Assembly: GCA_024697425.1 (NCBI GenBank)
Contig: JAILFT010000031.1
Location: 1-35,931, forward strand
Length of the DNA: 35,931 nucleotides
Origin: Butyrivibrio sp.
GTDB taxonomy: Bacteria > Bacillota > Clostridia > Lachnospirales > Lachnospiraceae
Reading direction: 5' to 3'
The first letter of the stretch is position 1, and each line of letters starts with the position of its first letter. A program made the translations under genes and the position numbers. The notes under the pieces were generated by a model that saw only the letters and a program-made list of their open reading frames with translations, did no database searches and was not told the DNA's origin. Below, in pieces: positions 9,569-30,698 of this stretch.

Positions 9569-9739
9569 CGAGGTAATACGGATTGCTCCACTTTGTTTTC
9601 GCAATCCTCGAGATAATTCGGAAATCGATTCGCTCATTCTTCGCGTATCTTTTTTCCTCATTATCTCCTTGCCATCAAATACCATTGCAATTTTGCATGC
9701 AAGCATGCAAATCGCATGGTGCTTGATGGCATTACCTCG
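9569..9739 (-). ncRNA. Structured intercistronic element, copy A (rseP/ispG gap)
   Basis: Outer stem CGAGGTAAT/ATTACCTCG (9731-9739 / 9569-9577) encloses three hairpins: 9671-9730 (GCCATCAA/TTGATGGC), 9610-9667 (GAGATAAT/ATTATCTC) and 9580-9607 (GGATTGC/GCAATCC). Core GAGGAAAAAAGATACGCGAAGAATGAGCGAATCGATTTCCGA shared with copies B and C. Confidence 0.85.
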
Positions 9740-10784
9740 TAAACTTTGTAATATCATTAAACAAAACAAATACCATGAGTGCCAGTAGCGCCACCATTCC
9801 GATCATGTGAACGAAGCCTTCCTTCTCAGGTGGTACAGGCTTACCTACAATAACCTCTATGAACTGGAACACAAGTCGTCCTCCGTCAAGAGCCGGAATA
9901 GGTAAAAGATTCATGACGCCCAGGTTCACCGACAGAAGAACCGTCAGTGAGAGCATCGTCAGGATGACAGCTGAAATACCGTAGGGCTTAACCTCCTCAT
10001 AGGTATCATCCACCATCTTCACCATGCCCACAGGGCCTGAAACATCGTCCTTTGAGAGCTTACCCTTTACCAAAAGTGCAAGACTTCTGTAAGTCGTCTT
10101 AAAATAATAGCGCACCTCGTACCACGCATACTTAAGAGCCTGTGCTCCCTCGATCTTGCCGTACTCGCCGAGATAAATTCCCATGTAGTAACGGCCTTCC
10201 TCTGCGCTGTACTTGGGCTGGAGAGTTGTCTCATATCTCTGACCGTCTCTCTCATACACGATGTCCATGGGGCTGCCTTCCGCAAACTGAGAGATCAGGG
10301 TAACCTCTCCCGCCATGTACACCTTCTCGCCATCTACGCTGATTATCTTATCTCCCGGCTGCATTCCTGCTTCGGCAGCTGCAGATTCCTCAGTCATCTT
10401 GTCAATGACTGGGAAATTCCAGGCGGAAAAGCTCACCAGGATGACCGCCAGAATATAAGCAATTATAAAGTTTGCAAAGGGACCTGCGAAAAGAGTTGCT
10501 ATCCTCCTCCACACAGGAGCATTCAGGAATGAATGTTCATCGTAACCCTCTTTTTCCTCTGCGACAGGATCCATTCCGTCAAAGACACAGGCTCCGCCGA
10601 TTGGAAGGAGCTTTATGCTGTAGAGAGTCTCTCCCTTTTGTTTCTTCCAGATAGTCGGTCCCATACCGATAAAGAACTCGTTGACCCTGATACCGCCTGA
10701 CTTGGCGATTATGAAGTGGCCGAATTCATGGGATGTGACCAGAACTCCGAATATGATAAAGAAAATTAAAATACTAACTAACAT
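9732..10784 (-). CDS. rseP: RIP zinc metalloprotease (site-2 protease family)
   Basis: HEFGH zinc motif, PDZ segment (AGMQPGDKIISVDGEKV), NLLPIPALDGGR motif. Located between dxr and ispG. Confidence 0.93.
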   Translation of the reverse strand: MLVSILIFFIIFGVLVTSHEFGHFIIAKSGGIRVNEFFIGMGPTIWKKQKGETLYSIKLLPIGGACVFDGMDPVAEEKEGYDEHSFLNAPVWRRIATLFAGPFANFIIAYILAVILVSFSAWNFPVIDKMTEESAAAEAGMQPGDKIISVDGEKVYMAGEVTLISQFAEGSPMDIVYERDGQRYETTLQPKYSAEEGRYYMGIYLGEYGKIEGAQALKYAWYEVRYYFKTTYRSLALLVKGKLSKDDVSGPVGMVKMVDDTYEEVKPYGISAVILTMLSLTVLLSVNLGVMNLLPIPALDGGRLVFQFIEVIVGKPVPPEKEGFVHMIGMVALLALMVFVLFNDITKFTR

Positions 10785-11935
10785 CAGATGCTGTACTTCT
10801 TTCCGAGGAACTCATAGGTCTCCTGCTCAGCTGCAAGAATTGCAGCAACATCAGGATTCTCCACCATCCTGTGGTGGCTCATGGCCTCCTCTATCATGCT
10901 GTAGATCTCAAGGTACCTGATATCGCCCTTTAAGAATCTCTTAACAGCCATTTCATTGGCCGCATTGAACACAGTGGGCATACTGCCGCCTATGCGTGCT
11001 GAATCGTAGGCAAGCTTAAGTCCTCTGAATGTGTCTGTATCAGGTTTTTCAAAGGTCAGTGAATAGAGCTCAAACAGATCAAGTCTCTTTTCATTCATGG
11101 GTCTTCTGTCAGGATAGAAAAGAGCATACTGGATAGGGAGCTTCATATCCGGAACTCCGAGCTGTGCAATAACTGCGCCATCCACATACTGAACAGCACT
11201 GTGCACGATACTCTGAGGATGAACAACAACCTGAATATCATCAAGTGATACTCCAAATAGCCACTTGGCTTCCATGACTTCAAGGCCCTTATTTACAAGA
11301 GATGACGAATCAATTGTAACCTTGGGACCCATATCCCAGTTGGGGTGTTTAAGGGCATCGGCAGCTGTCATATTTTCAAGCTCCGCTCTCTTTTTACCCC
11401 TGAAAGGACCGCCGCTGGCTGTCAAAAGTATCTTCTCGATCTTATCCTTCGGCTCACCGTTTAAAGACTGGAAAATAGCGCTGTGCTCCGAGTCCACGGG
11501 AAGGATCTGCACGTTCTTTTCCCTGGCAAGGGGCATTATTATGTGACCTGCGCAAACAAGAGTCTCCTTGTTGGCAAGGGCAATGTCTTTTCCGCATTCA
11601 ATTGCTCTGATGGTGGGTCTGATACCGATCATTCCTACCACTGCTGTAAGTACTGTATCCGCCTCGGGGACCGATACTATATCAAGAAGTCCGTCCATTC
11701 CGGCCATAACCTTGATGCCGGTGTCTGAAATTCTGTCCTGAAGTTCTTTTGCCGCAGCTTCATCAAACATGCAGACATACTTTGGAGTAAATTCACGAAC
11801 CTGTTTTTCTACCTCGGGAACACTTCTGTTGGCTGCAAGTCCTACAACCTCCAGCTCCGATCTGTTATTTCTGACAACGTCCAGCGTCTGTGTTCCAATG
11901 GATCCTGTTGATCCGAGTAAAACTATTTTTCTCAT
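10784..11935 (-). CDS. dxr: 1-deoxy-D-xylulose 5-phosphate reductoisomerase
   Basis: MRKIVLLGSTGSIGTQTLDVV, ALANKETLVCAG, PVDSEHSAIFQ, VHPQSIVHS. Confidence 0.97.
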   Translation of the reverse strand: MRKIVLLGSTGSIGTQTLDVVRNNRSELEVVGLAANRSVPEVEKQVREFTPKYVCMFDEAAAKELQDRISDTGIKVMAGMDGLLDIVSVPEADTVLTAVVGMIGIRPTIRAIECGKDIALANKETLVCAGHIIMPLAREKNVQILPVDSEHSAIFQSLNGEPKDKIEKILLTASGGPFRGKKRAELENMTAADALKHPNWDMGPKVTIDSSSLVNKGLEVMEAKWLFGVSLDDIQVVVHPQSIVHSAVQYVDGAVIAQLGVPDMKLPIQYALFYPDRRPMNEKRLDLFELYSLTFEKPDTDTFRGLKLAYDSARIGGSMPTVFNAANEMAVKRFLKGDIRYLEIYSMIEEAMSHHRMVENPDVAAILAAEQETYEFLGKKYSI

Positions 11936-11956
11936 AATATCTTCCTTAAATCTGAT

Positions 11957-12781
11957 TTAACCAAGTAACGGCAACATAACAGCTGCCAGAAAATAAATGC
12001 ATGGGATGACAAATATAACACTGTCGAATCTGTCCATTATTCCGCCATGCCCCGGAATAAGAGTTCCGTAATCCTTGATATTGTGATCACGCTTTATACC
12101 TGATGCCAGAAGATCTCCAATCTGGGAGATGATACTTCCTGCAAAGCAGATGATCATAAGTCCCCACACCGTAGCAAAGTTATGTGTTTCATTCACATAA
12201 AGGATATAACCTATGATCCCGCCAACGATCACTGAACCCAGGATCCCGCCTATAGCACCTTCTATTGTCTTCTTAGGAGAAAGAACCGGTGCCATCTTGT
12301 GCTTGCCAAAAGCTCTTCCCGCGAAGTAAGCGCAGGTGTCGCAAACCCAGGCAATGAAAGGTATCCACGCAAAGTATACGCCCAGATGTCTTGTCCTTAA
12401 CAGGTAGACAAAAGACATATTGACCGGCGCATAGATAAAGCTGAAAAAGCAGAATATTGCCTGATCAGCCTTATATTTGGGGAAGGTGACAACATAGCAC
12501 ACCATTATAAGGAAAAATGCAAACATGATGGAAAAGATATAGTACCTGTAGTCCTTAAACAGCATCATCTGTCCGTAATGGACCAGGATCGATGCGTATC
12601 CGCAGGCCTCCAGCATATTAATCCTGCTGCCGGATCCATGAACTCCAAGAGCTCTTGTCAGTTCAAAATATGCGATAAGTGATACTATCAAAAGTGCTGC
12701 CGAGAGTACGTACCCTCCCGGGATAAGTACTGCCGCCAGCACAATTCCAATTACAATTCCACTGATAACTCTAGTCTTCAA
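11957..12781 (-). CDS. cdsA: Phosphatidate cytidylyltransferase
   Basis: C-terminal CDP-diglyceride synthetase signature (SQIGDLLASGIKRDHNIKDYGTLIPGHGGIMDRFDS). Multiple TM segments. Confidence 0.95.
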   Translation of the reverse strand: MKTRVISGIVIGIVLAAVLIPGGYVLSAALLIVSLIAYFELTRALGVHGSGSRINMLEACGYASILVHYGQMMLFKDYRYYIFSIMFAFFLIMVCYVVTFPKYKADQAIFCFFSFIYAPVNMSFVYLLRTRHLGVYFAWIPFIAWVCDTCAYFAGRAFGKHKMAPVLSPKKTIEGAIGGILGSVIVGGIIGYILYVNETHNFATVWGLMIICFAGSIISQIGDLLASGIKRDHNIKDYGTLIPGHGGIMDRFDSVIFVIPCIYFLAAVMLPLLG

Positions 12782-13497
12782 GATTCCTTCAGTCCTCCAA
12801 ACTTACGGTTTCTGCCGGCGTAGGCTTCTACCGCCTTTTCAAGCTCAGCCTTGTTAAAATCAGGCCATGCTACAGGAGTAAAGTAGAACTCCGTATACGC
12901 ACACTGCCAAAGCAGGTAATTGGATATCCTCTGCTCGTTGCAGGTTCTTATCAGAAGGTCCGGATCCGGAAGGAAGTTGGTATCCAGATTTTCAGCAATA
13001 TCCTTCTCTGTTATATCCTCAGCTTTTAGCTCACCAGCCTCTACTCTCTTTGCAACCTTTCTGACAGCCCTTGTTATCTCGTCTCTGCTGCCGTAATTGA
13101 TGGCAATGGTAAAGGTAAGTCCTGTGTTGCCTGCAGTTGTATCCTCAAGCTCTTTGATAGCCTTCTGGATATCCTCTGAAAGCAGAGAGCGCTCACCGAT
13201 GACACGGCAGCGCACGTTGTTTTTCATGGACTTCTTTATACTGGTTTTAAGATAATTGCGAAGGATCGTCATGAGGGCAGAAACCTCTGCCTCAGGACGA
13301 CTCCAATTTTCAGTAGAAAATGCATATACTGTCAGGTATTTGATCCCCATGTCCCTGGCGTCCACAAGGATGTCTTCAACAGCTTTTGCTCCCTGCATAT
13401 GTCCATAGTTTCTGGGCATTCCCTTTGCCTTGGCCCATCTTCCGTTGCCATCAAGAATAATGGCTACATGTGCGGGAATATTATTTACATTATCCAT
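12778..13497 (-). CDS. uppS: Isoprenyl transferase (undecaprenyl diphosphate synthase)
   Basis: HVAIILDGNGRWAKAKGMPRNYGHMQGAKAV, YAFSTENWSRP, DPDLLIRTCNEQRISNYLLWQCAYTEFYF. Confidence 0.97.
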   Translation of the reverse strand: MDNVNNIPAHVAIILDGNGRWAKAKGMPRNYGHMQGAKAVEDILVDARDMGIKYLTVYAFSTENWSRPEAEVSALMTILRNYLKTSIKKSMKNNVRCRVIGERSLLSEDIQKAIKELEDTTAGNTGLTFTIAINYGSRDEITRAVRKVAKRVEAGELKAEDITEKDIAENLDTNFLPDPDLLIRTCNEQRISNYLLWQCAYTEFYFTPVAWPDFNKAELEKAVEAYAGRNRKFGGLKES

Positions 13498-13511
13498 TTA
13501 TATCACCTGTT

Positions 13512-13683
13512 TGACGTTATACGGATTGCTCCGCTTCGCTCTCGCAATCCTGCGAATATTCGGAAATCGATCCGCTCATTCTTCGCGTATCTTTTTTCCT
13601 CATATTCGCTCGGGTCTTGAAGTCATCGCATGCTTAACATGCAAGCATGTACACATGCATGACTTAATCCCCTTATACCGTCA
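13512..13683 (-). ncRNA. Structured intercistronic element, copy B (frr/uppS gap)
   Basis: Outer stem TGACGGTATA/TATAACGTCA (13674-13683 / 13512-13521, 9 of 10 pairs). Hairpins AAGTCAT/ATGACTT (13620-13665), GCGAATAT/ATATTCGC (13552-13609), GGATTGC/GCAATCC (13523-13550). Core nearly identical to copy A. Confidence 0.83.
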
Positions 13684-14224
13684 TAATTTCTTTATTCTTC
13701 TCTTCAACAGCTGCATCAATATCCTTGATGAACTTGTCGGTTATCTTCTGAAGCTCCTCGTTAAGATCCTCGATCTCATCCTCTGAAACCTCGGTTCCCT
13801 TGAGCTTCTTAAGGGCATCGTTGCCGTCACGTCTTACGTTTCTGACTGCGACCTTAGCGTCCTCACCCTTCTTGCGGATATCCTTGGTGAGCTGTTTTCT
13901 GCGCTCCTCTGTGAGCTCAGGGAAAACAAGTCTGATCACTGCACCGTCATTGCTTGGTGTGATTCCAAGATCTGATGCCATGATAGCCTTCTCAATATCC
14001 TTGATAAGTGTCTTATCCCATGGCGCGATCTGAATGATCCTGGCCTCAGGAATAGATACGTTTCCAACCTGCTGAACAGGAGTAGGAGTTCCGTAGTAAT
14101 CAACCTTGATCTTGTCGAGAACATGCGGATTAGCTCTTCCTGCTCTTATTGATGCAAGATCGTCTCTAAGAAAGTCAAATGACTTCTGCATTTTGTCATT
14201 AAAGCTTTTAAGTCTTTCGTTCAT
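13673..14224 (-). CDS. frr: Ribosome recycling factor
   Basis: MQKSFDFLRDDLASIRAGRANPHVLDKIKVDYYGTPTPVQQVGNVSIPEARIIQIAPWD; TEERRKQLTKDIRKKGEDAKVAVRNVRRD. Confidence 0.98.
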   Translation of the reverse strand: MNERLKSFNDKMQKSFDFLRDDLASIRAGRANPHVLDKIKVDYYGTPTPVQQVGNVSIPEARIIQIAPWDKTLIKDIEKAIMASDLGITPSNDGAVIRLVFPELTEERRKQLTKDIRKKGEDAKVAVRNVRRDGNDALKKLKGTEVSEDEIEDLNEELQKITDKFIKDIDAAVEEKNKEIMTV

Positions 14225-14242
14225 ACCCTAAACCTCCCCTGG

Positions 14243-14938
14243 TTAATTTGTTGTAACGGTAGTTCCGTTAAATTCGCCCTTTGATGCCTTAACAATGCTG
14301 TCCTCTTCCTGGAGAGCGAAGACTCTCATAGGCATATGGTTATCTCTTGCAAGAATTGATGCTGTCATGTCTACAACCTGAAGGTTCTGCTCAATGACCT
14401 CATCGATCGAGATAGTGTCATATCTCTTTGCGTCAGGGTTCTTGGCAGGATCTGAATCATATACTCCGTCAATAGCCTTGGCAAGAAGGATATAATCCGC
14501 CTCAACCTCTATGGCTCTCAAAACAACACCTGTATCAGTTGAGAAGTATGGATGTCCTGTACCGCCTGCAAAGAATACAACCATGTTCCTTGCAAAGTAT
14601 TTGTTGGCTCTGTCCTTGGAAAAGAGCTTTGTAAATGATCCGCACTCAAAAGGAGTAAGTATATTGGTCATCATGCCTACACTTCTGAAGATCTCAGACA
14701 CATAGATGCAGTTCATGATAGTGGCAAGCATTCCGATCTGATCAGCCTTGGTGCGATCAATATTCTCGCTGCTGCGTCCTCTCCAGAAATTACCACCGCC
14801 AATAACGATACCAACCTGTGTGCCGTTATCTACAAGCTGCTTGACCTGAAGTGCAACCTTTCTGACAGTCTCTTCATCAAAGCCTGTCTTCTTTTCACCT
14901 GCAAGTGCCTCACCACTGAGCTTTAATAAAATTCTCAT
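14243..14938 (-). CDS. pyrH: UMP kinase
   Basis: RILLKLSGEALAGEKKTGFD, GIVIGGGNFWRGR, GTGHPYFSTDTGVVLRAIEVEADYILLAK. Confidence 0.97.
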   Translation of the reverse strand: MRILLKLSGEALAGEKKTGFDEETVRKVALQVKQLVDNGTQVGIVIGGGNFWRGRSSENIDRTKADQIGMLATIMNCIYVSEIFRSVGMMTNILTPFECGSFTKLFSKDRANKYFARNMVVFFAGGTGHPYFSTDTGVVLRAIEVEADYILLAKAIDGVYDSDPAKNPDAKRYDTISIDEVIEQNLQVVDMTASILARDNHMPMRVFALQEEDSIVKASKGEFNGTTVTTN

Positions 14939-14959
14939 CTATTCGTTACCTCAAAAATA

Positions 14960-15925
14960 TTATTTATTCTTAAGTCCCTCGAAGAACTCTGAAGGATTAA
15001 CATCAGCATAAGCCTGTGAGCACATACCCTCGATAACAGCACCATTGTTGATCTGTACTGACTGAGACTTGATATTGCCCATTACGATAGCTGTTGTATC
15101 AAGAACTACAGGACCGTGAACATCGATATCACCCTTAACAGCACCGGCAATAACTGCGCTTGAACCATAGATGTTACCAACGATAACTGTGCTCTGTCCA
15201 ACCTTAACGCTGCCCTTGCTCTTGATCTCTCCGGTGATCCTTGCAGACTCTGCATAGATCTCAGCTGCATCTGAATCTCCGTTGATCTCACCTGTGATGT
15301 TGAGCTTACCAAGACACTTGATATTACCTGTGATCTTACCAATGAGCTCAAGTGAACCTGTTGTGGCGATATCGCCCTTGACGATCATACCTTCGGTAAT
15401 GCTGGCAACTTCATCTGTAGGTGTCTGCTGTTCGAAATCCATAGTTTCAATTCCCCCATTTCTTGTTATCATTTCTGTTTCTGCATTTCTATCTGCCACA
15501 TACTTGTCGATATGTGTAGGATTGATAGCCTCAAGAGCGTTCTTGGGCTCTTCGACCTTTATCTCCTCCTGAGTCTGCTCCTCAATCTTCTCCTCGAGCT
15601 CACGAACTTCGTCTACAACCTCTTCTGTCGCTTCAGTGATCTCTTCCTTTATCTCTTCTTTGGCCTCTTCGACTTCCTCAAGAGTCTCCTCGGCTTCCTC
15701 GATAGCCTCTACAGTCTCTTCTACGGTTTCTTCCTTCTTGTCCTCAACTGCCTCATCAAGCTTGATGTCATCAAGACGATTGAGCATGCTGTCAAGGTCT
15801 ACAGGCTTCGGTGCTTCTACAGGCGCCTTGTCTGCGCCAAGGTCCCCAGCCTCCGGCTTGTCCTCAGGCATAAGTGTATTAACAGCCTGTGAGAGGTCGC
15901 TTTTCAGCTCAGAAAAAAATCCCAT
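14960..15925 (-). CDS. Bactofilin (polymer-forming cytoskeletal) protein with long acidic N-terminal extension
   Basis: C-terminal bactofilin beta-helix pattern (IVKGDIATTGSLELIGKITGNIKCLGKLNITGEINGDSDAAEIYAESARITGEIKSKGSVKVGQSTVIVGNIYG). N-terminal ~150 aa dominated by EE/EA/EEVKE. Confidence 0.88.
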   Translation of the reverse strand: MGFFSELKSDLSQAVNTLMPEDKPEAGDLGADKAPVEAPKPVDLDSMLNRLDDIKLDEAVEDKKEETVEETVEAIEEAEETLEEVEEAKEEIKEEITEATEEVVDEVRELEEKIEEQTQEEIKVEEPKNALEAINPTHIDKYVADRNAETEMITRNGGIETMDFEQQTPTDEVASITEGMIVKGDIATTGSLELIGKITGNIKCLGKLNITGEINGDSDAAEIYAESARITGEIKSKGSVKVGQSTVIVGNIYGSSAVIAGAVKGDIDVHGPVVLDTTAIVMGNIKSQSVQINNGAVIEGMCSQAYADVNPSEFFEGLKNK

Positions 15926-15955
15926 CTAGATATCCTCCATTCAATCTTTTTTCGT

Positions 15956-16897
15956 TTAGTTGATATGTTGAACCGGTAACGTGTCCTCGGTTATCGGTAC
16001 TATCACTGTGTCTTCCATGTCCTGGATCGCTTCGATGATCTCAGGTAAAGCCTCTACCGTGCTCTTCTTGTCAGCAGCATCGTGCATAAGTACTACACAA
16101 TGCTTGAATCTGGGCACGTTATTGACTATGTTGGCGTAAATTGTGTCCTTGTTGGCACCGGCTCTGTCATCTCCCGCTGAGACATTCCAGTCAAAGAATG
16201 TCACATCGGACTCCTCCAGATAGCTTGTCAGCTCATGCATATCCACCTTGCTGACGGTGTTGGAGCTCCCTCCCGGGAAACGGTAAAACTTGGCCCACAC
16301 GCCTGTTGTCTCGTATAAAAAAATTCTCAGTTTATCCGTATCTTCCTTGAAAGAATCAAGAGAAGCATATAATTCGCTATACTTGTGACTGTACGAGTGC
16401 ATCCCAAGAGTATGCCCATCATTAACTATTCTCTTGTAAAGATCTGTATACTTGGCATTCGGTTTGCCACAGACAAAGAATGTCGCCTTGACATTGTACT
16501 GCTTAAGAATGTCCAGGATATCATCTGTGTACGTACTCGGTCCGTCGTCGAAGGTCAGGTAAACGTATCTGGTACCTTCTATATCCTCAGGATTCTGGGC
16601 GCCACTTACATCCACCGTGGCGTAATCCACATCCATTTCTTCTGAACCCGTCTTAGCAATGTCCGGATCTTTTTCATCAGGTAGAGCCTCTGAAGCCAGA
16701 ATATCCCTCTCGCTGCCGAACTGCTCTCTGTACCAGTCAAGATCGGCCTTTGTTTTCTCATAATCAGAATGAAGTCTGTCATATCTGACGGCAAGAATAA
16801 CACAGATACAAGTGGGAATAAGGCATGCAGCTGCCACTGTAGTAACGATGAGTCTGCGCAAATATCGGATTCGCTTACTGTACTGCTTAGACTCCAT
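15956..16897 (-). CDS. Membrane-anchored polysaccharide deacetylase family protein (NodB domain)
   Basis: N-terminal TM, then RYVYLTFDDGPSTYTDDILDILKQYNVKATFFVCGKPN, LGMHSYSHKYS, FYRFPGGSSN, CVVLMHDAADK. Confidence 0.93.
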   Translation of the reverse strand: MESKQYSKRIRYLRRLIVTTVAAACLIPTCICVILAVRYDRLHSDYEKTKADLDWYREQFGSERDILASEALPDEKDPDIAKTGSEEMDVDYATVDVSGAQNPEDIEGTRYVYLTFDDGPSTYTDDILDILKQYNVKATFFVCGKPNAKYTDLYKRIVNDGHTLGMHSYSHKYSELYASLDSFKEDTDKLRIFLYETTGVWAKFYRFPGGSSNTVSKVDMHELTSYLEESDVTFFDWNVSAGDDRAGANKDTIYANIVNNVPRFKHCVVLMHDAADKKSTVEALPEIIEAIQDMEDTVIVPITEDTLPVQHIN

Positions 16898-16976
16898 TAT
16901 TCCATCTCTTTCTTATAGTTATGTAACCAAGGTATAGTATAGCATAGAATACCGAACACAAAAAGGTGTTTTTCGT

Positions 16977-17471
16977 TTACATAACACCTGTGATTTCATC
17001 GGCTATAACGCCTGCTACGTATAGCTTGTATTCGTATCTGCTGTCCATGACAGGCACAAAAATATGCCTGCTCAAGGTACCTTCTTTATGTGCTATCGCA
17101 AAAAACACTTCTCCCGGAACAGAGTCGTTGTTGGCAGGATCCACGTTTCCCATGGTCCCCGTAACTCCGACTGCTATATCCGCGCCGTAAGCTCTTTTGG
17201 CTGCAAGCGCCATCTCTCGGGCTGTCTCCTCAGAGTATACTCCGAACTTCCCGATCACCTCCGCAGGCACATTCTGCATTATCTTGGCCTCATTTGAGTA
17301 GGTGATAAAAGCTCCCATCAGCACTGCGGATGCACCTTCGGTGTCTGTCAAAAGAGATGCCACAAGCCCCGAAGTACAGCTCTCCATCGTGGTTATTGTC
17401 AGTTTTTTCTCTATCAGTGTCTTCGTGATAAAACGGAATTTCTCCCGTACATTCTTTTCAAGCTCAGTCAT
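16977..17471 (-). CDS. CinA C-terminal-domain protein (nicotinamide-nucleotide amidohydrolase family)
   Basis: LIEKKLTITTMESCTSGLVASLLTDTEGASAVLMGAFITYSNEAKI ... GVTGTMGNVDPANND. Start taken at MTELEKN (17471), avoiding overlap with feoAB. Confidence 0.9.
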   Translation of the reverse strand: MTELEKNVREKFRFITKTLIEKKLTITTMESCTSGLVASLLTDTEGASAVLMGAFITYSNEAKIMQNVPAEVIGKFGVYSEETAREMALAAKRAYGADIAVGVTGTMGNVDPANNDSVPGEVFFAIAHKEGTLSRHIFVPVMDSRYEYKLYVAGVIADEITGVM

Positions 17472-17472
17472 A

Positions 17473-19815: not shown

Positions 19816-19817
19816 TA

Positions 19818-21131
19818 TTAATCCATCTCCTTCAGAAGTCTGTCAGCAGCCACAAGCCTTACACAAACTGTAAAGATCTCCATGGCAAGCTTAAGATCTG
19901 GCAAGCTTGGAAGTGTCGGAGCAATACGGATGTTGGAATCGTGAGGATCCTTGTGATATGGATAAGTAGCACCGGCTCCCGTCATTGTAACGCCGGCCTT
20001 CTTGGCCCTGTCAACAATGGCCCTTGCACATCCCTCAGGTGCGTCAAAGCTGATGAAGTATCCACCCTTGGGCCTTGTCCACTCACCCACTCCGCATGGA
20101 GTAAGCTCTCTGTCCAATATCTCCAAAACAGCCTCAAACTTAGGTCTGATGATGGCTGCATGCTTCCTCATATGCTCCTTGAGATTGTTGATATCTCCGT
20201 TAAAGAATCTGACGTGTCTAAGCTGATTAACCTTATCATGTCCGATGGTCTGGTAATTGAGCTGAGCCTTGATCTCCTCCAGGTTGTTGAGGGATGTGGC
20301 AATGGCTGCAATTCCGCTGCCCGGGAATGTGATCTTTGATGTAGATGAGAACTTGTAGACCATATCCGGGCTTCCGGCTCTCTTACACTCCTCTAAGATC
20401 TCAATAAGGTAATCCTGATTATCATCGTAAAGATGGTGAACTCCGTATGCATTGTCCCAGAAAATCCTGAAATCCCTTGCTGCGGGACGAAGGCGTGCAA
20501 AACGTCTTACCGTTTCATCTGAGTATGAATATCCCTGAGGATTTGAATACTTGGGTGTGCACCAGATACCCTTTATGGACTCATCGTTAGCGACAAGTCT
20601 CTCCACCTCATCCATATCGGGGCCTGTAGGTGTCATCTTTACAGGTATCATCTCAATCCCGAAGTACTCTGTTATCGCAAAATGTCTGTCATATCCCGGT
20701 ACAGGGCAAAGGAACTTAACCTTGTCGAGCTTGCACCATGGAGTGTTGCCCATTACGCCGTGGGTATAGGCTCTTGATACGGTATCATACATTACGTTAA
20801 GCGAAGAGTTACCATATATGATGATATTCTCAGGCTTATTCTCCATCATGGCACCGATAAGTACCTTGGCCTCATGAATACCATCCAGAACACCGTAGTT
20901 ACGGCAATCTGTTCCGTCCTCACATGAGAGATCCGCCTCTGAATTGAGCGCATCCATCATACCCATTGAAAGATCCAGCTGCTCTCTGCATGGCTTACCC
21001 CTTGCCATATTCAGGGACAGCTCCATCTCCTGATACTTCTTATACTCGGCCTTGAGCTTGACAATTTCCTGCTCCAGTTCCTGTTTGTTCATCTCAACAT
21101 ACTTTTTTGTACTGCCTTGAACCTGGGACAT
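19818..21131 (-). CDS. PLP-dependent aminotransferase (MocR/aspartate aminotransferase-like)
   Basis: ELSLNMARGKPCREQLDLSMGM, CRNYGVLDGI, GIWCTPKYSNPQGYSYSDETVRRFARL, DNAYGVHHLYDD, KFSSTSKITFPGSGIAAIA. Confidence 0.9.
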   Translation of the reverse strand: MSQVQGSTKKYVEMNKQELEQEIVKLKAEYKKYQEMELSLNMARGKPCREQLDLSMGMMDALNSEADLSCEDGTDCRNYGVLDGIHEAKVLIGAMMENKPENIIIYGNSSLNVMYDTVSRAYTHGVMGNTPWCKLDKVKFLCPVPGYDRHFAITEYFGIEMIPVKMTPTGPDMDEVERLVANDESIKGIWCTPKYSNPQGYSYSDETVRRFARLRPAARDFRIFWDNAYGVHHLYDDNQDYLIEILEECKRAGSPDMVYKFSSTSKITFPGSGIAAIATSLNNLEEIKAQLNYQTIGHDKVNQLRHVRFFNGDINNLKEHMRKHAAIIRPKFEAVLEILDRELTPCGVGEWTRPKGGYFISFDAPEGCARAIVDRAKKAGVTMTGAGATYPYHKDPHDSNIRIAPTLPSLPDLKLAMEIFTVCVRLVAADRLLKEMD

Positions 21132-21181
21132 CTCTTTCTCCTCTCAAATTCACCACGTTAAATCACTAATATCTTCATAAA

Positions 21182-21210
21182 AATATACCTCAGACTGTTA
21201 AAAACTTCAA
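21182..21210 (-). promoter_or_regulatory. Putative sigma-A promoter for the aminotransferase-feoAB-cinA cluster
   Basis: Minus strand TTGAAG-(17 nt)-TATATT in the gap between rlmD and the aminotransferase. Confidence 0.55.
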
Positions 21211-21240
21211 GGTATACAATTATACAAAAATTCATTTGTT

Positions 21241-22464
21241 TTATTCCTTAACAAGAAGGCACACTACCTCCGCTCCTCTTGTAAAGGGGAACATGTCCAC
21301 AGGAACAGCTCTTTTAACCTTGTATCCGCCTTTGGTTATGAGTTTCAGATCATTAGCCAGAGAGTCGGGACTGCATGATATATACACAACCTTCTTTGGA
21401 GAAAGAGCTATCAGAGACCTGATAAACTCAGGCGTAGAGCCGGATCTTGGCGGATCCATGAAAACAAGGTCAGCCTTATCGCCCGATTCAGCCATCTGCT
21501 GCATGAATACAGTGGCATCATTCTGATAAAAGGTGATATTTTTAACCTCATTGATCTTGGCATTGAGGATTGCATCCTTCACCGCATCCTTATTGAGCTC
21601 GACGCTAATGACCTCTTTGACATGTGGACTTGCGATAAGTCCGATGGTTCCGACACCACTGTAGCAGTCCATTGCCACCTCATTGCCGGTTAGGTCCGCC
21701 ATCTCAATGGCAGTCTTATAAAGTACCTCCTGCTGAACAGGATTTACCTGGTAAAAAGACTTGGGTGATATCTTAAACTTCATACCGCAGCAGATGTCAT
21801 AGATAAATCCGGGACCATAGATAGCCTTCTCCTTATCTCCGAGGATCATGCTGGTCTGCTTGTCGTTGATATTAAGGACAATTGTGGTGATCTCAGGATG
21901 CTCTTTTTTCAGTGCCTTCACAAAATTGTTCTTGGATGGGAAAACAGGTGAAACCGTGACCAGTACGACCATGATCTCTCCCGTATTCTTACCGATCCTG
22001 ATGAGTACATGTCTAAGGAGTCCGTATCCGTTGTCCTCGTCATAAGTCTTTATCTTGAAAGACTTAAGCATTCCTCTTATGGTCGCAATAATAGCATCAG
22101 CCTTCTTATCCTCCAAAAGACAGTTCTCAACAGGAACCACCTCATGGCTGCCCTCTCTGTAAATCCCTGTGACGGGATTGCCCTTTTTGTCATGATCAAA
22201 GACAGCATGGACCTTGCATCTGTAATGCTCCGGGCTATCCATGCCTATGAATGACTCAACCTTGCAATACGGCTTTAAGAGCTCCGCTACGTGAGCATGT
22301 TTTTTGCGCAGCTGTGTTTCATAAGGAGTGTCTATCATCTGACAGGCACCACACTTTTTAAACACGGGACAGCGGCTCTTTGACCTGTCCATCTTCTTAT
22401 CTGATGCGTCCTCCGCCGGCTTTCTGTATGCGGGTTTTCTTCCTACATTCTTTTTCTCTGCCAT
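21241..22464 (-). CDS. rlmD: 23S rRNA (uracil-C5)-methyltransferase, RumA/TrmA family
   Basis: CPVFKKCGACQMIDTPYETQLRKK cysteine motif, PKSFYQVNPVQQEVLYKTAIE, AMDCYSGVGTIGL, LVFMDPPRSGSTPEFI, VVYISCSPDSLANDL. Confidence 0.93.
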   Translation of the reverse strand: MAEKKNVGRKPAYRKPAEDASDKKMDRSKSRCPVFKKCGACQMIDTPYETQLRKKHAHVAELLKPYCKVESFIGMDSPEHYRCKVHAVFDHDKKGNPVTGIYREGSHEVVPVENCLLEDKKADAIIATIRGMLKSFKIKTYDEDNGYGLLRHVLIRIGKNTGEIMVVLVTVSPVFPSKNNFVKALKKEHPEITTIVLNINDKQTSMILGDKEKAIYGPGFIYDICCGMKFKISPKSFYQVNPVQQEVLYKTAIEMADLTGNEVAMDCYSGVGTIGLIASPHVKEVISVELNKDAVKDAILNAKINEVKNITFYQNDATVFMQQMAESGDKADLVFMDPPRSGSTPEFIRSLIALSPKKVVYISCSPDSLANDLKLITKGGYKVKRAVPVDMFPFTRGAEVVCLLVKE

Positions 22465-22521
22465 AAAATCTCCTATACATAAAACAAGCAGGAGATATCC
22501 ATCCCCTGCTCTATCTCAAAG

Positions 22522-22917
22522 TTACTCGTTTTCATCAGTACTGTCTAACTTGTTCTCGAACTTAAGCTCCGGCATTTCAAGTCCTGTGCTCTCATCCTTA
22601 ACCGCTTCGCTCCTCCTACGGATGCGCTCGGTATTCTTAATCTCACCGTAGTCCTTGTACTTGATACCCTCAATTCCCTGAGAAAGCTCTTTGGCTCTGA
22701 CAAGGTCACCCTTATTGATCTTGAATGTGCAGACAATCTTGCTGCCGCTCCTGTCGAAGAGTTTCTGAAGGATTGATTTGTCCTGCCACTCTATGAAATA
22801 AGATATACGATGTGCAAGAAATCTCTCCTCAAGCTGTTTCTTGCTCTCAATACTGTAGACCCTGCAGAAGGGAACCTCGTTATTAAAGACCTGATTGTTC
22901 TGAATAATTGAAGACAT
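22522..22917 (-). CDS. Hypothetical protein
   Basis: 131-aa ORF with a plausible start in a genic gap, consistent strand. No family recognised. Confidence 0.65.
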   Translation of the reverse strand: MSSIIQNNQVFNNEVPFCRVYSIESKKQLEERFLAHRISYFIEWQDKSILQKLFDRSGSKIVCTFKINKGDLVRAKELSQGIEGIKYKDYGEIKNTERIRRRSEAVKDESTGLEMPELKFENKLDSTDENE

Positions 22918-23035
22918 ATAAACCTCACTTTATTTTCTAACTAATTTTAGATTATAACCCACAAGGCGTGTTCTTTCAAGAAATCCCATAAGATTATGCT
23001 ATACTATTTTTATCAAATAACACGGAGAAAATCTT

Positions 23036-24529
23036 ATGTTCACCTTTGAAAAAGCAATTCCCGAAAGCACAGGCATTTCATCTGAAGCAATAAAAAATGT
23101 CCTGATCACTCTTGATAAAAAGAATGTTCCCATGCACTCTCTGCTCATCATGAGAGACGATAAGCTCATATTTGAGAAATACTACGCTCCTTATACAGCC
23201 ACTACCCTTCACAGGCTCTTTTCCGTAAGTAAGAGCATAACTGCCATGGCGATCGCCTTATTGCAGGAAGAGGGCAAGCTCTCCTTTGACGAATCCATAA
23301 CTGCATACTTTCCCGAGTACACTGACGAAAGCACACATCCGTGGATCAGAATGACCACCATAAGAAATATGCTGCAGATGAGGACCTGCCACGCTTCTAC
23401 CACCTACAAGGTCGACATGAAGTCCGACTGGGTTGAGAGCTTTTTTAAGGTTGCTCCGACACATAAACCGGGGACTGTCTTTCACTATGACACCTCCGCA
23501 GCCCACACTCTGTGCGCTCTTGCGGAGAAGCTCTCAGGAATGCCCATGCTTGATTACCTGAAGGCCAAGGCCTTTGATCACCTGGATTTCAGCCGTGATT
23601 CATATATGGTAAAAGACCCTTTTGGAGTCTCTATGGGCGGAAGCGGCCTGATGGCAACTCCCATGGATCTTATGAAGATCCTGTATCTGCTTCATAAAGG
23701 CGGAACTGTTAAATGCAGTGACGGACAGGTGAGATCTCTTTTGCCAAAAGAGTTTGTTAAGGAAACCACATCCAACATCAGCGACACTCTCCCCACATCT
23801 CCTCTTCCCAGCGAGGCACAGGGCTACGGAATGCAGATCTGGCAGAATGAAAAGGGCGGCTTTGTCCTCTACGGCATGGGCGGACAGCTGGGCATAAGTC
23901 TTCCTTCCGAGAACATGCTTATCGTAACCACTGCCGATACCCAGGGAATGGCAGGCGGCAATCAGGTGATCTACGATGCCCTGTACGACAATCTGCTTAA
24001 ACCGGCAGCTCCGTCTTCTGATGGTAAAAGAGCTTACGAAGACCTGCTCGCCTTCGGAGAAACTCTAAGGATCGCCCCTCCAAGGCTTCCGGAGAATTAC
24101 GGATACACCCCGGTCAGCCCTGATCACAGCATATCAGGCCTAGCTGTAAGCCGCACCTATGAGCTCTCAGACAATCCTCAGGGCTTTGAAAGCCTTAAGA
24201 TTGACATTGCTCCAGGCGCCAACTCATCCCTGACCTTTAAATACAGGGACAAAAATAAAGCATCCTCACTTCCTGAGAATGCTTTAAAACTAAGCTTTGC
24301 AATCGGCGATATGGCAGAAGGGATCTTCCCTGTTTATAACTGCCCCTACACCGCAGGTGGCGTATGGCTTAGAGAGAACGTCCTCTACATAAGATTCCAT
24401 CTCATCGGCGAGTCCGTAGGATCAGTACGCTTCGAGCTGTACTTCGGCGGCGACGATCTGACCGTCTTCATGAAGAAAGTTGAAGAGACCTACTTTAAGG
24501 AATTTGACGGTCATCTTTACGGCCACTGA
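23036..24529 (+). CDS. Serine hydrolase / class C beta-lactamase family protein
   Basis: HRLFSVSKSITAMAIALLQEEGKLSFDESI (SxxK), YDTSAAHTLCALAEKLSGM (YxN-like region), GYGMQIWQNEKGGFVLYGMGGQ. GGAG ribosome-binding site. Confidence 0.9.
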   Translation: MFTFEKAIPESTGISSEAIKNVLITLDKKNVPMHSLLIMRDDKLIFEKYYAPYTATTLHRLFSVSKSITAMAIALLQEEGKLSFDESITAYFPEYTDESTHPWIRMTTIRNMLQMRTCHASTTYKVDMKSDWVESFFKVAPTHKPGTVFHYDTSAAHTLCALAEKLSGMPMLDYLKAKAFDHLDFSRDSYMVKDPFGVSMGGSGLMATPMDLMKILYLLHKGGTVKCSDGQVRSLLPKEFVKETTSNISDTLPTSPLPSEAQGYGMQIWQNEKGGFVLYGMGGQLGISLPSENMLIVTTADTQGMAGGNQVIYDALYDNLLKPAAPSSDGKRAYEDLLAFGETLRIAPPRLPENYGYTPVSPDHSISGLAVSRTYELSDNPQGFESLKIDIAPGANSSLTFKYRDKNKASSLPENALKLSFAIGDMAEGIFPVYNCPYTAGGVWLRENVLYIRFHLIGESVGSVRFELYFGGDDLTVFMKKVEETYFKEFDGHLYGH

Positions 24530-24549
24530 TCTGCTATTTTTAGCCCTGT

Positions 24550-25812
24550 TCAGAATCCCATATACACGCCAGGGATATCGTCCTCGGTAAGATGGATATT
24601 GTTGCTGCCTGAGTCGTTTTCGGCAGTTTCCATTTTTACTACGTTTACATATCCGTCGTTGATCATGTCCACCATGTAAGGAACAATATTGGGATCAAAC
24701 TGGGTTCCTGACCCCTGCTGGATCTCCTCAATGATCTCATCTTTGTTGAGATGCCTTCTGTAAACCCTGTTGCTGGACATGGCATCATAAGCATCGGCAA
24801 CTCCTACTATCCTTGCATAAAGAGGGATATTTTCACCCGCAAGTCCTTCCGGATAACCCGTTCCGTCATATCTCTCATGATGATAAAGAGCTATCTCTCT
24901 GATACCGCGAAGAGACGTCATTTGCTTAAGCATCTTTCCGCCGGCCACCGTGTGGTCCTGGATCTGTTTTCGCTCTTCGTCCGACAGCTTCCCGGGCTTG
25001 TTAAGTACAGCATCGGGAACGCTGATCTTACCTGCATCATGAAGAAGTCCTGCATAATATATGTTCTGCACCTCATCCTCCGACAGGCGCATCCTCTTTG
25101 CAATCTCTGCAGCATACATGGCAACACGTCTTGAGTGGCCCCTGGTGTAAGGGTCTTTTGCATCGATGAAACTGATGAATGTATTCATCGACTGAAGTAT
25201 GATCCTCACATCGTTTTTCTGTTTCTCGCGATAGTTTTTCAGGTTAAACTTCGATACGAAGAATCCCATAAACAGTGCAGCCCAGATAACAAATCCAACA
25301 TAGATTATCCTGGTAAACACATTCCCGGCATTTCCCGTTCTATAGCCTCTTAAGGTTATCTTTTCAGGGAAAAAAGAATCCCTGGTATTAAGCACAACTC
25401 CAAACTCCAGATCATTGTCGTTTGTAAATGAAAGATTGTAGAACTCAGGAGTAAAAATAAGTTTATCCCCATCAATATGCGTTTCAACGCCCCAGTGATT
25501 TGATATCTCTGTGTCTTTTGGCACATCAATGGTAGCTTTCCAGTTGCTTATTCCCTTTTTTTCATTGTTCTTGACCACAAAATCATACTGAGCATAGTAG
25601 CGGTTTTTGGTGTTTCCTTCGCCTGATCTGGACACAGTTGCATAGACACCATCTGAGAGCTTTGCTCCGGTAAGGCTCAGGTCAATGGTGTACTCAGAAG
25701 ACACATTATTATCCGCACATACCTTGTTTACAAAAAGGGCAGTAAACAGGACGACGAATGCCGTTAAGAATATCAGCAATGTTTCCGTAGTCTTGTCCAG
25801 TTTCATAGACAC
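24550..25812 (-). CDS. Membrane HD-GYP domain protein (putative c-di-GMP phosphodiesterase) with extracytoplasmic CBM2-like segment
   Basis: HD-GYP motifs HSRRVAMYAAEIAKRM, LLHDAGKISVPDAVLNKPGKLSDEER, HHERYDGTGYPEGLAGENIPLYARIVGVADAYDAM. TM helices near both ends of a ~130-aa N-terminal segment. Confidence 0.93.
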   Translation of the reverse strand: MSMKLDKTTETLLIFLTAFVVLFTALFVNKVCADNNVSSEYTIDLSLTGAKLSDGVYATVSRSGEGNTKNRYYAQYDFVVKNNEKKGISNWKATIDVPKDTEISNHWGVETHIDGDKLIFTPEFYNLSFTNDNDLEFGVVLNTRDSFFPEKITLRGYRTGNAGNVFTRIIYVGFVIWAALFMGFFVSKFNLKNYREKQKNDVRIILQSMNTFISFIDAKDPYTRGHSRRVAMYAAEIAKRMRLSEDEVQNIYYAGLLHDAGKISVPDAVLNKPGKLSDEERKQIQDHTVAGGKMLKQMTSLRGIREIALYHHERYDGTGYPEGLAGENIPLYARIVGVADAYDAMSSNRVYRRHLNKDEIIEEIQQGSGTQFDPNIVPYMVDMINDGYVNVVKMETAENDSGSNNIHLTEDDIPGVYMGF

Positions 25813-25841
25813 CTCGCAATATTCTGCATATTAAATTATAC

Positions 25842-25880
25842 AAAAAAGCGCCATTCCTTTAAACAAGAATGACGCTTTTT
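25842..25880 (-). terminator. Intrinsic terminator downstream of kdgK
   Basis: Minus strand AAAAAGCGTCATTC-(11 nt)-GAATGGCGCTTTTTT. Stem with one mismatch followed by T tract. Confidence 0.75.
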
Positions 25881-25905
25881 AATACTTTTTTAATTATTAT
25901 TTAGA

Positions 25906-26931
25906 TTATCTCTGGATACGTCCTGATCCGTCTCCACCTGCAAGCTTGTTAACCTCATCAACTGTAACAAGGTTGAAGTCTCCCTCGATGGAGTGCTTAA
26001 GAGCTGAAGCAGCAACTGCAAATTCGATTGTCTCCTGAGGTCCGAAGCCGTTTACGCAGCTGTAGATAAGTCCGCCGCCGAATGAATCTCCGCCACCTAC
26101 ACGGTCAACAATGTGAAGTGCGTACTTCTTGGAGAAGTAAGCCTCTCCGTCAGTGTAGAGCATTGCGCTCCAGTTGTTGTCATTAGCTGAGATAGACTCA
26201 CGAAGTGTGATAGCAACCTTCTTGAAGCCGAATCTCTCTGTGAGCTTCTGTGCAACCTCGATATAGCCCTCTCTGTTGAGCTTACCTGTTGTAACATCTG
26301 TTGAAGAAGCTGCGATACCGAATACATCGTTAGCATCCTCTTCGTTAGCAATACATACATCAACGTACTGGCAGAGCTCGCCCATAACCTTGCCTGCCTT
26401 CTCCTTGCTCCAGAGCTTTCCTCTGTAGTTAAGATCACAGGATACTGTAAGTCCATGCTCTTTAGCCTTCTTACAAGCCTCAAGTGTGATAGCTGCAAGA
26501 GAGTCGCTTACGGCAGGAGTGATACCTGTGAAGTGGAACCACTCTGCTCCGTCGAAGATCTCATCCCAGTTAAAGTCTGCAGGAACAGCCTCAGCGATTG
26601 CTGAATGTGCTCTGTCGTAGATGCACTTTGAGCCTCTCTGAGAAGCACCCTTCTCGTTGAAGTAGATACCAACTCTGTCGCCACCTCTTGTGATCTTGGA
26701 TGTATCAACACCATACTTTCTAAGAGAGTTAACAGCTGCCTGTCCAATCTCGTGCTTAGGAAGCTTTGTAACATAAACTGAATCAAGTCCGTAGTTAGCA
26801 AGAGAAACGGATACGTTTGCCTCTCCACCGCCAAATGTAGCCTCAAGATGATCTACCTGAACAAATCTCAAATAATTATCAGGCTGCAGACGCAGCATGA
26901 TCTCACCAAATGTAACAACTTTCTTTGCCAT
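25906..26931 (-). CDS. kdgK: PfkB-family sugar kinase, probable 2-keto-3-deoxygluconate kinase
   Basis: VVTFGEIMLRLQPDNYLRFVQVDHLEATFGGGEANVSVSLANYG; DRVGGGDSFGGGLIYS. Clustered with kdgA/kduD/kduI. Confidence 0.9.
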   Translation of the reverse strand: MAKKVVTFGEIMLRLQPDNYLRFVQVDHLEATFGGGEANVSVSLANYGLDSVYVTKLPKHEIGQAAVNSLRKYGVDTSKITRGGDRVGIYFNEKGASQRGSKCIYDRAHSAIAEAVPADFNWDEIFDGAEWFHFTGITPAVSDSLAAITLEACKKAKEHGLTVSCDLNYRGKLWSKEKAGKVMGELCQYVDVCIANEEDANDVFGIAASSTDVTTGKLNREGYIEVAQKLTERFGFKKVAITLRESISANDNNWSAMLYTDGEAYFSKKYALHIVDRVGGGDSFGGGLIYSCVNGFGPQETIEFAVAASALKHSIEGDFNLVTVDEVNKLAGGDGSGRIQR

Positions 26932-26954
26932 TATATTATCCTCCGATATTTTAA

Positions 26955-27917
26955 TTAGTTAAGTCCAAGGTGAACTGCAAATCCGCCGAAGTCATCAGCA
27001 AGATATGCAACCTTAAGATGGTTATCAGCGTCATATGAGAAAGATGTCTCATCAAACTTAACGCCCTGTCTTCCAAGGTGGTAAACAGCTCTGTCGATGT
27101 TGTTGCATCCGATAGCGATGTGTCCGCATGTTCCACGGCCCTTCGACTTCATAACCTCTACTGCTGAGCCGGCAAATACAGAAGAATTGCCAACCTTCTT
27201 GGTAAGACCAAAGAGTGTATCGAACTTATCTGCAACAGCCTCAGCTGCCTCAGCGCTATCCTGATTGATGCCGATGTGCTTAAGCTTAAAGCCAAGCATT
27301 GCATTTACAGCATCTCTTGTCATTGCCTCGATCTCATCGAACTTGCCGGCTGAGATAAGGTCTTTTTTAACCATCCAGCTTCCGCCGCAGCAGAATACCT
27401 TGTTAAAGCTGAGGTAATCATTTAAGTTGTTCTTATTAACGCCACCTGTAGGCATGAAGTGCATCTTGGTATAAGGTGCTGCCATAGCTTTGATCTTGGC
27501 AATTCCGCCATTCTGCTCAGCAGGGAAGAATTTTACGCAGTCAAGACCAAGCTCGATAGCCTGCTCAACCTCACCGGGTGTTGCTGTTCCGGGAACAACA
27601 GGTACTCCGATTGACTGAATATACTCAACGTTTGCTCTGTTAAAGCCGGGGCTTACAATAAACTTAGCGCCTGCAGCCTTAGCTCTGTCAGCCTGCTCTG
27701 CATTGAGTACTGTACCTGCACCAACGATCATCTCAGGGAACTTGGTGGAAATGATCCTGATCGCTTCCTCTGCAGCTGCTGTACGGAATGTAACCTCTGC
27801 AGCGGGAAGTCCTCCGTTAATAAGTGCCTGGGCAAGTGGCTCTGCATCCTTAGCATCGTCAATTGCGATTACCGGAACAATACCGATCTTATAAAGTTCT
27901 TCACAAATCTTATCCAT
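26955..27917 (-). CDS. kdgA: KDPG/KHG aldolase fused to a C-terminal VOC-like domain
   Basis: N-terminal aldolase (GIVPVIAIDDAKDAEPLAQALINGGLPAAEVTFRTAAAEEAI, VGAGTVLNAEQADRAKAAGAKFIVSPG, CVKFFPAEQNGGIAKIKAMAAPY, MPTGGVNKNNLNDYL). C-terminal ~105 aa (GHIAIGCNNIDRAVYHLGRQGVKFDETSFSYDADNHLKVAYLADDFGGFAVHLGLN) is VOC-like. Confidence 0.9.
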   Translation of the reverse strand: MDKICEELYKIGIVPVIAIDDAKDAEPLAQALINGGLPAAEVTFRTAAAEEAIRIISTKFPEMIVGAGTVLNAEQADRAKAAGAKFIVSPGFNRANVEYIQSIGVPVVPGTATPGEVEQAIELGLDCVKFFPAEQNGGIAKIKAMAAPYTKMHFMPTGGVNKNNLNDYLSFNKVFCCGGSWMVKKDLISAGKFDEIEAMTRDAVNAMLGFKLKHIGINQDSAEAAEAVADKFDTLFGLTKKVGNSSVFAGSAVEVMKSKGRGTCGHIAIGCNNIDRAVYHLGRQGVKFDETSFSYDADNHLKVAYLADDFGGFAVHLGLN

Positions 27918-27944
27918 TTCTATTTCCTTTCTTACTATACATTT

Positions 27945-28127
27945 ATTTGACTAACATGAATTGCTTCATTGCTTCGCAATTCTCGCAATTCTACACCAAT
28001 TCAGAAATCGACAGGCTCAATCCTTTCGCCTGTCTTTTTTCTTCATTGGTGTTTGCACCTCAAAGTCATATTTGCAATTCTGTGCAAGCACAATTGCAAT
28101 ATGACCTTGATCTGCCATTAGTCAAAT
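27945..28127 (-). ncRNA. Structured intercistronic element, copy C (kduD/kdgA gap)
   Basis: Perfect 10-bp outer stem ATTTGACTAA/TTAGTCAAAT (28118-28127 / 27945-27954). Hairpins 28061-28109, ACACCAAT/ATTGGTGT (27993-28052) with inner GACAGGC/GCCTGTC, and GAATTGC/GCAATTC (27958-27991). Core GAAGAAAAAAGACAGGCGAAAGGATTGAGCCTGTCGATTTCTGA. Confidence 0.84.
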
Positions 28128-30207: not shown

Positions 30208-30221
30208 CTTTAGTCTTTTTA

Positions 30222-30698
30222 TGAGTAGGACTGTAAGCCGGGTTATGTCGTGAATGATCATCTATCTAGGACTGCCGTCACCGACAGCCTCAAGCGACCC
30301 ACCTGAAAGCGAACCGGGCCGGCTCATTGCTTTCTTTTCGGTCTTGCTTCGAATGGGGTTTACATGGCTACTGATGTTACCACCAGCACGGTAGTCTCTT
30401 ACACTGCCTTTCCACCCTTACGCTTCTAAGGCGATTCGGCGGTCACTCGGAAAGCACGCTTTCCTCGTTACGCGGCATTCGCCGCATGCCCAGACTGCAA
30501 TAAGCCAATTTTCATGCAAGCATGAAATTGTCTATTTCAGCCTGGTCGCCCGCCTCATTTGAAACGCGGTATATCTCTGTTGCACTATCCTGGGAGTCAC
30601 CTCCACCAGACGTTATCTGGCATCCTGCCCTGTGAAGCCCGGACTTTCCTCTCCCATGCCCTTTCGTTTGCATGGCAGCGATCATTTATCCTACTCAG
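30222..30698 (-). ncRNA. rnpB: RNase P RNA
   Basis: Minus strand contains GAGGAAAGTCCGGGCTTCACAGGGCAGGATGCC, GAAGCGTAAGGGTGGAAAGGCAGTGTAAGAGACTACCG and ACATAACCCGGCTTACAGTCCTACTC. Terminal P1 stem TGAGTAGGA/TCCTACTCA. Confidence 0.97.

Follow-up and report, generated by a model that had tools for sequence, protein, structure and literature searches.

Annotation of three intercistronic elements in a Butyrivibrio contig

The window analysed here is the whole 35,931-nt stretch of contig JAILFT010000031.1 from Butyrivibrio sp. (assembly GCA_024697425.1). Three folded elements, copies A, B and C, lie on its minus strand between rseP and ispG, between frr and uppS, and between a short-chain dehydrogenase/reductase (SDR) gene resembling kduD and a KDPG-aldolase-like gene, respectively. 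A reading of the letters without database searches (the sequence-only reading) had found no described family that fits these elements and had proposed a new structured RNA or a non-autonomous mobile element. Searches with cmscan recovered all three copies within 3 nt of the positions so derived and placed them in RF01699 (Clostridiales-1 RNA), and the claim of a new structured RNA therefore fails. The mobile part of the proposal holds. RF01699 is very probably the body of a miniature inverted-repeat transposable element (MITE), a non-autonomous DNA transposon, mobilised in trans by an IS1182-like DDE transposase, because identical copies, terminal inverted repeats (TIRs), 5-bp target-site duplications and an insertion sequence (IS) with the same terminal repeats are directly observed in related genomes, as is the presence or absence of the element at orthologous sites.

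Each window copy covers the RF01699 model (positions 1-166) entirely and scores more than twice the gathering score of 48 bits (Table 1). The outer stem P1 extends copies B and C beyond the cmscan bounds to the coordinates given in the table. Folding with RNAfold reproduced in every copy the architecture that had been drawn from the sequence, namely P1, hairpin H3 with a CUUG tip, hairpin H2 with an A6 core, hairpin H1 and the returning arm P1'. The folding energies of A, B and C are -77.6, -70.2 and -81.6 kcal/mol (z = -10.9, -7.6 and -10.8), and 0 of 200 shuffled sequences folded as stably as A, B or C. The stems also covary strongly. In the H2 and H1 stems of 65 copies, two-sided changes occur at 20 of 23 pairs (232 cells vs. 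a shuffled mean of 76 and a maximum of 106), and by eye the covariation is most apparent in H3, between orthologous copies. Stem covariation is equally compatible with a host RNA and with a mobile element whose fold is under selection, and it therefore does not discriminate between them. The predicted abundance was likewise found, with 21 RF01699 copies in the window's genome. The family is present in all 25 genomes of the genus that were searched (1 to 32 copies per genome) and has matches in 57 of 295 sampled genomes of the order, distributed over 25 of 129 genera.

Clostridiales-1 RNA comes from a 2010 survey of 104 candidate RNAs (PMC2864571). The table of that survey rates a structure as likely and marks the family as neither cis-regulatory nor a riboswitch candidate, and the main text assigns it no function (PMC2864571). 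Rfam types RF01699 as 'Gene; sRNA'. The family is thus known as an RNA family, and its mobile identity is a re-reading. No prior description of RF01699 as mobile was found in the open-licence literature, and open-licence papers on MITEs in Butyrivibrio, Lachnospiraceae or Rfam yielded nothing relevant.

Full-length copies and a probable partner insertion sequence

The full-length form of the element is found in relatives. In genome G057 (three contigs), the nine copies fetched do not differ anywhere within the element, and the similarity of their flanks drops to background at once. These copies run 35 nt beyond the Rfam model with TAAGGTGTCAAAAGGAACTTTTGACACCTACCTCA, a second TIR, the end of which mirrors the element start TGACGTAAGGGTCAAAAGT at 16 of 19 positions. 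Perfect 5-bp duplications flank all nine (TTATA in three copies, and TTTGA, TGATA, TAATA, TATTA, TTAGA and AAATA). The same anatomy of TIRs and a duplication is present in G007, G019 and G017, with a TIR match of 14-16 of 18, and in three other genera (G167, G087 and one copy in G327). Matches to the TIR pattern number 52 in G057 and 62 in G330, compared with 0 for the reversed-pattern control. Overall, the full form consists of imperfect TIRs of 18-20 bp, of the type TGA..TAAGGGTCAAAAG, placed around H3-H2-H1. Among full copies collected on the criterion of a perfect duplication, each entered in both orientations, the target consensus is T[AT][AT][AT]A and the lengths are 184-248 bp, mostly 190. 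The Rfam model ends at P1' and omits the 18-35 nt right-hand repeat of these copies. Internal deletions and end truncations are common. A 39-bp palindrome in G057 (L406, G057:C1:1147299-1147337) consists of two joined terminal repeats between TCATA and TCATA and represents a minimal element. TIR matches in viral contigs were regarded as chance, because they are located within coding sequence.

An IS with matching ends was detected in G013, where six contig ends carry its termini, three with TGATGTTGGGGTCAAAAGCCC and three with TGATGTAAGGGTCAAAAGCCC. One set of flanking 5-mers (TGGGA, TATAA and TCTAA) is found at the three left ends and again at the three right ends, indicating three IS copies with 5-bp duplications. 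At its right end, this IS matches the right terminus of the G007 MITE without a mismatch for 18 nt. The C-terminus of the IS protein shows weak matches to the ISNCY/IS1182 models and to DDE_Tnp_1_6. A relative with 68% identity in the human-gut scaffold MT838951.1 shares the IS right end, and its protein matches NF033551 (IS1182) collinearly in three pieces (1.6e-11, 5.7e-9 and 1.1e-5) as well as DUF772 and DDE_Tnp_1_6. Because these fragments score 43.8, 35.4 and 24.5 bits, far under the curated cut-off of 270 bits, the putative partner is called at most IS1182-like, and membership in the IS1182 family is not concluded. From the shared ends and the equal duplication length, we infer that this transposase mobilises the MITE. 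The rve transposases of G057 and G330 were ruled out as partners, being without the ends. A search of viral contigs and plasmids for the transposase gave nothing usable. A 1.9-kb span (L465, G167:C11:27952-29856) was rejected as an autonomous element, since it comprises two MITE copies around cargo. The cargo comprises a tRNA gene plus two genes for membrane proteins that look LrgA/B-like by eye; the flanking 5-mers differ, and the span is a possible compound unit.

Several observations weigh against the MITE reading. A search of 12 genomes detected the transposase N-terminus in G013 alone; the window's genome (84.5% complete) did not yield it, and no contiguous complete IS was recovered. Copies A-C have neither the right TIR nor a target-site duplication, and a duplication sought at A and B by comparison with the empty sites was not found. 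The right TIR and the duplication are also absent from most copies at stop codons, a class in which no duplication was found at any fixed offset, and the window copies therefore do not directly reveal the transposase. The form seen in A-C is a derived one in which the right terminal repeat is missing.

ERIC, RUP, BOX and Correia repeats are short and non-coding, with inverted ends, a strong RNA fold and many intergenic copies that vary between strains. As far as these general characteristics go, the RF01699 element shares them. However, its duplication is 5 bp long, unlike the TA duplication of RUP and Correia repeats, and it differs from all four in its three-hairpin body with covarying stems and in the window form, which lacks the right TIR and the duplication. 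REP/RAYT elements have a Y1 transposase as their partner; the putative partner with matching ends identified here is of the DDE type.

The stop-codon form and its closing stem

Orthologous sites were compared for 18 copies of the window's genome in four close relatives and for 24 copies of other species in five more. Site A is empty in G072, G004 and G047, and site B is empty in four relatives, G072 among them. The 1-kb flanks of G072 at both sites are 95-99% identical to those of the window, and the empty intercistronic gap at A and B is 3-4 nt. Copy C is common to G072 (L268), and its site is empty in G004 and G047. The stop codons of rseP (copy A) and frr (copy B) lie inside the 5' arm of P1. 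At these two sites the host already had the sequence of the 5' arm, and its complement, the 3' arm, is new and absent from the empty sites of the relatives. The same situation was observed, wholly or partly, at L009, L013, L014, L017, G003:C3:19488, G018:C6:31301 and G023:C1:61218. In 87 non-redundant copies, pairing extends past the model ends by a mean of 1.90 bp, compared with 0.55 bp (standard deviation 0.09) when flanks are swapped, and 0 of 2000 flank-swap shuffles came near the observed value. The stop class alone shows 1.73 vs. 0.47 bp (standard deviation 0.10). In G019, one copy of an identical pair has the right repeat (duplication tttaa) and the other ends at P1' (duplication tataa).

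Table 1. Coordinates of copies A-C and their parts in the window
Feature	Position	Strand	Observation
Copy A, RF01699 element	9569..9739	(-)	cmscan 101.6 bits (9569-9739); between rseP and ispG
Copy A P1 5' arm CGAGGTAAT	9731..9739	(-)	end of rseP; already in empty sites L169, L177, L178
Copy A hairpin H3, CUUG tip	9671..9730	(-)	sequence and fold
Copy A hairpin H2, A6 core	9610..9667	(-)	sequence and fold
Copy A hairpin H1	9580..9607	(-)	sequence and fold; covariation
Copy A P1' arm ATTACCTCG	9569..9577	(-)	exact 9-nt host-flank complement; not in empty sites
Copy B, RF01699 element	13512..13683	(-)	cmscan 100.5 bits (13515-13680); between frr and uppS
Copy B P1 5' arm TGACGGTATA	13674..13683	(-)	end of frr; in empty sites L140-L143
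Copy B hairpin H3	13612..13672	(-)	sequence and fold
Copy B hairpin H2, A6 core	13552..13609	(-)	sequence and fold
Copy B hairpin H1	13523..13550	(-)	sequence and fold; exact H1 pattern match
Copy B P1' arm TATAACGTCA	13512..13521	(-)	9/10 host-flank complement; not in empty sites
Copy C, RF01699 element	27945..28127	(-)	cmscan 109.4 bits (27948-28124); between SDR gene (kduD-like) and KDPG-aldolase-like gene
Copy C P1 5' arm ATTTGACTAA	28118..28127	(-)	immediately past SDR stop codon
Copy C hairpin H3	28055..28115	(-)	sequence and fold
Copy C hairpin H2, A6 core	27993..28052	(-)	sequence and fold
Copy C hairpin H1	27958..27991	(-)	sequence and fold
Copy C P1' arm TTAGTCAAAT	27945..27954	(-)	sequence and fold

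Analysis of the placement showed a sense stop codon of a long frame within ~13 nt of the element start in 58 of the 87 copies, compared with 15 in the mirror control. Several of the remaining copies are preceded by a tRNA or by a hairpin resembling a terminator. The full-length copies with duplications exhibit no stop-codon bias (7 vs. 8, a symmetric count). When 82 copies were classified by the orientation of their neighbours, 55 fell in the ++ class and nine each in the --, -+ and +- classes. The replication strand is a further candidate source of the sense bias and is confounded with gene orientation.

In the mechanism proposed here, the full form, mostly ~190 bp, would rely for its movement on a DDE transposase that acts in trans on its ends, and insertion would create a 5-bp AT-rich target-site duplication. 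The identical G019 pair with different ends suggests that P1' can stand in for the right end; forms lacking the right repeat would arise in this way. For A-C, a further step would be needed to make P1' complementary to the host flank; it could be snap-back copying, later correction of the imperfect palindrome by template switching or import of an old copy by recombination. Copies A-C lie in sense at stop codons within transcription units, and P1 closes their folded RNA. The closing stem likely holds the stop codon near the next ribosome-binding site, so that the insert would be tolerated. Subsequent decay by deletion leaves single-hairpin remnants.

It is highly improbable that RF01699 is instead a functional small RNA or cis-regulatory RNA retained for the benefit of the host. 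The strong fold, the covariation and the sense orientation of 55 of the 82 classified copies are compatible with such a function. However, the neighbouring genes are varied and unrelated rather than of one class (ispG, uppS, KDPG aldolase, gyrA and others), and a riboswitch or cis-regulatory leader was rejected on this ground. Close relatives also differ in the presence of the element, single-hairpin remnants are common, and identical copies are bordered by target-site duplications.

For the stop-codon form, a separate route can be envisaged in which, during insertion, the 3' end of the element folds back (snap-back) onto the host strand and copies a few bases of the 5' flank into P1', leaving no duplication. 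Pairing past the model ends above the swapped-flank level in all copies and in the stop class, the P1 5' arms that are host sequence in the empty sites at A, B and seven further loci, and the lack of a fixed-offset duplication agree with this route. Nevertheless, snap-back is considered unlikely: some copies may have been rewritten by quasi-palindrome correction after ordinary insertion, and the transposase may simply take P1' as the right end, as the G019 pair suggests. That the stop-codon form constitutes a distinct mobile mode, with sense insertion at gene 3' ends and a closing arm templated on the host flank, appears distinctly unlikely; if true, each stop-codon copy would be sealed by a stem specific to its own site. 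Alternatively, copies A and B could have been imported by homologous recombination from a lineage in which they were old and in which selection or template switching had earlier adapted P1 to the flank; this is possible although somewhat unlikely. The ispG start at A is identical to that of G072 up to the element edge, and the remaining empty/filled pairs are equally sharp. Import has some support for B, because the first 24 nt of the adjacent uppS are strongly diverged from G072 despite the high identity of the 1-kb flanks. In addition, the frr-uppS junction of G076 is occupied by a different RF01699 copy, which is diverged and scores 54.1 bits. Stop-codon placement might also reflect the survivorship of random insertions in the few bases between operon genes, empty intercistronic gaps often being as short as those at A and B. 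This explanation is tentative and on the less likely side. It has to account for the excess of sense stop codons at the 5' end over the mirror control, for the stop adjacency of some convergent sites that have a long gap downstream, and for the scarcity of -- insertions, as antisense insertions should persist equally, yet the ++ class is far larger.

Decay, variants and annotation

With the MITE reading, a structured-RNA family that has been without a function since 2010 gains a testable identity, and RF01699 matches would be better annotated as transposable elements than as small RNA genes. The case also shows that folded mobile DNA cannot be told from host RNAs by covariation alone. A further question, raised by the site-specific closing stem of the stop-codon form, is how operons tolerate folded inserts.

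Some remnants keep both P1 arms intact around H1 alone or H3 alone, and in G072 one copy was lost cleanly, leaving the palindrome GTGTGATATATCACAC, indicating that copies decay via deletion between short repeats. At orthologues of the L026 site (L262, L266 and L267), a short hairpin of differing sequence replaces the element at the same stop codon. Tandem duplications of the 3' part (H1 and P1', or the end of H1 only), with up to three units, are located downstream of full copies at L014 (G000:C199), L205 (G015:C1:149211) and L253 (G018:C4:219429). In G066, arrays of RF01699 units spaced ~100-150 nt apart are present on several contigs (L350, L353, L357, L374 and others). Two shorter copies without H2 (L028 and L029; G000:C158:15475-15591 and C114:6753-6876) score just above the Rfam cut-off and lie right after terminator-like T runs. 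Elsewhere in the window, the minus strand at 30218-30697 encodes the RNase P RNA of bacterial class A (302 bits).

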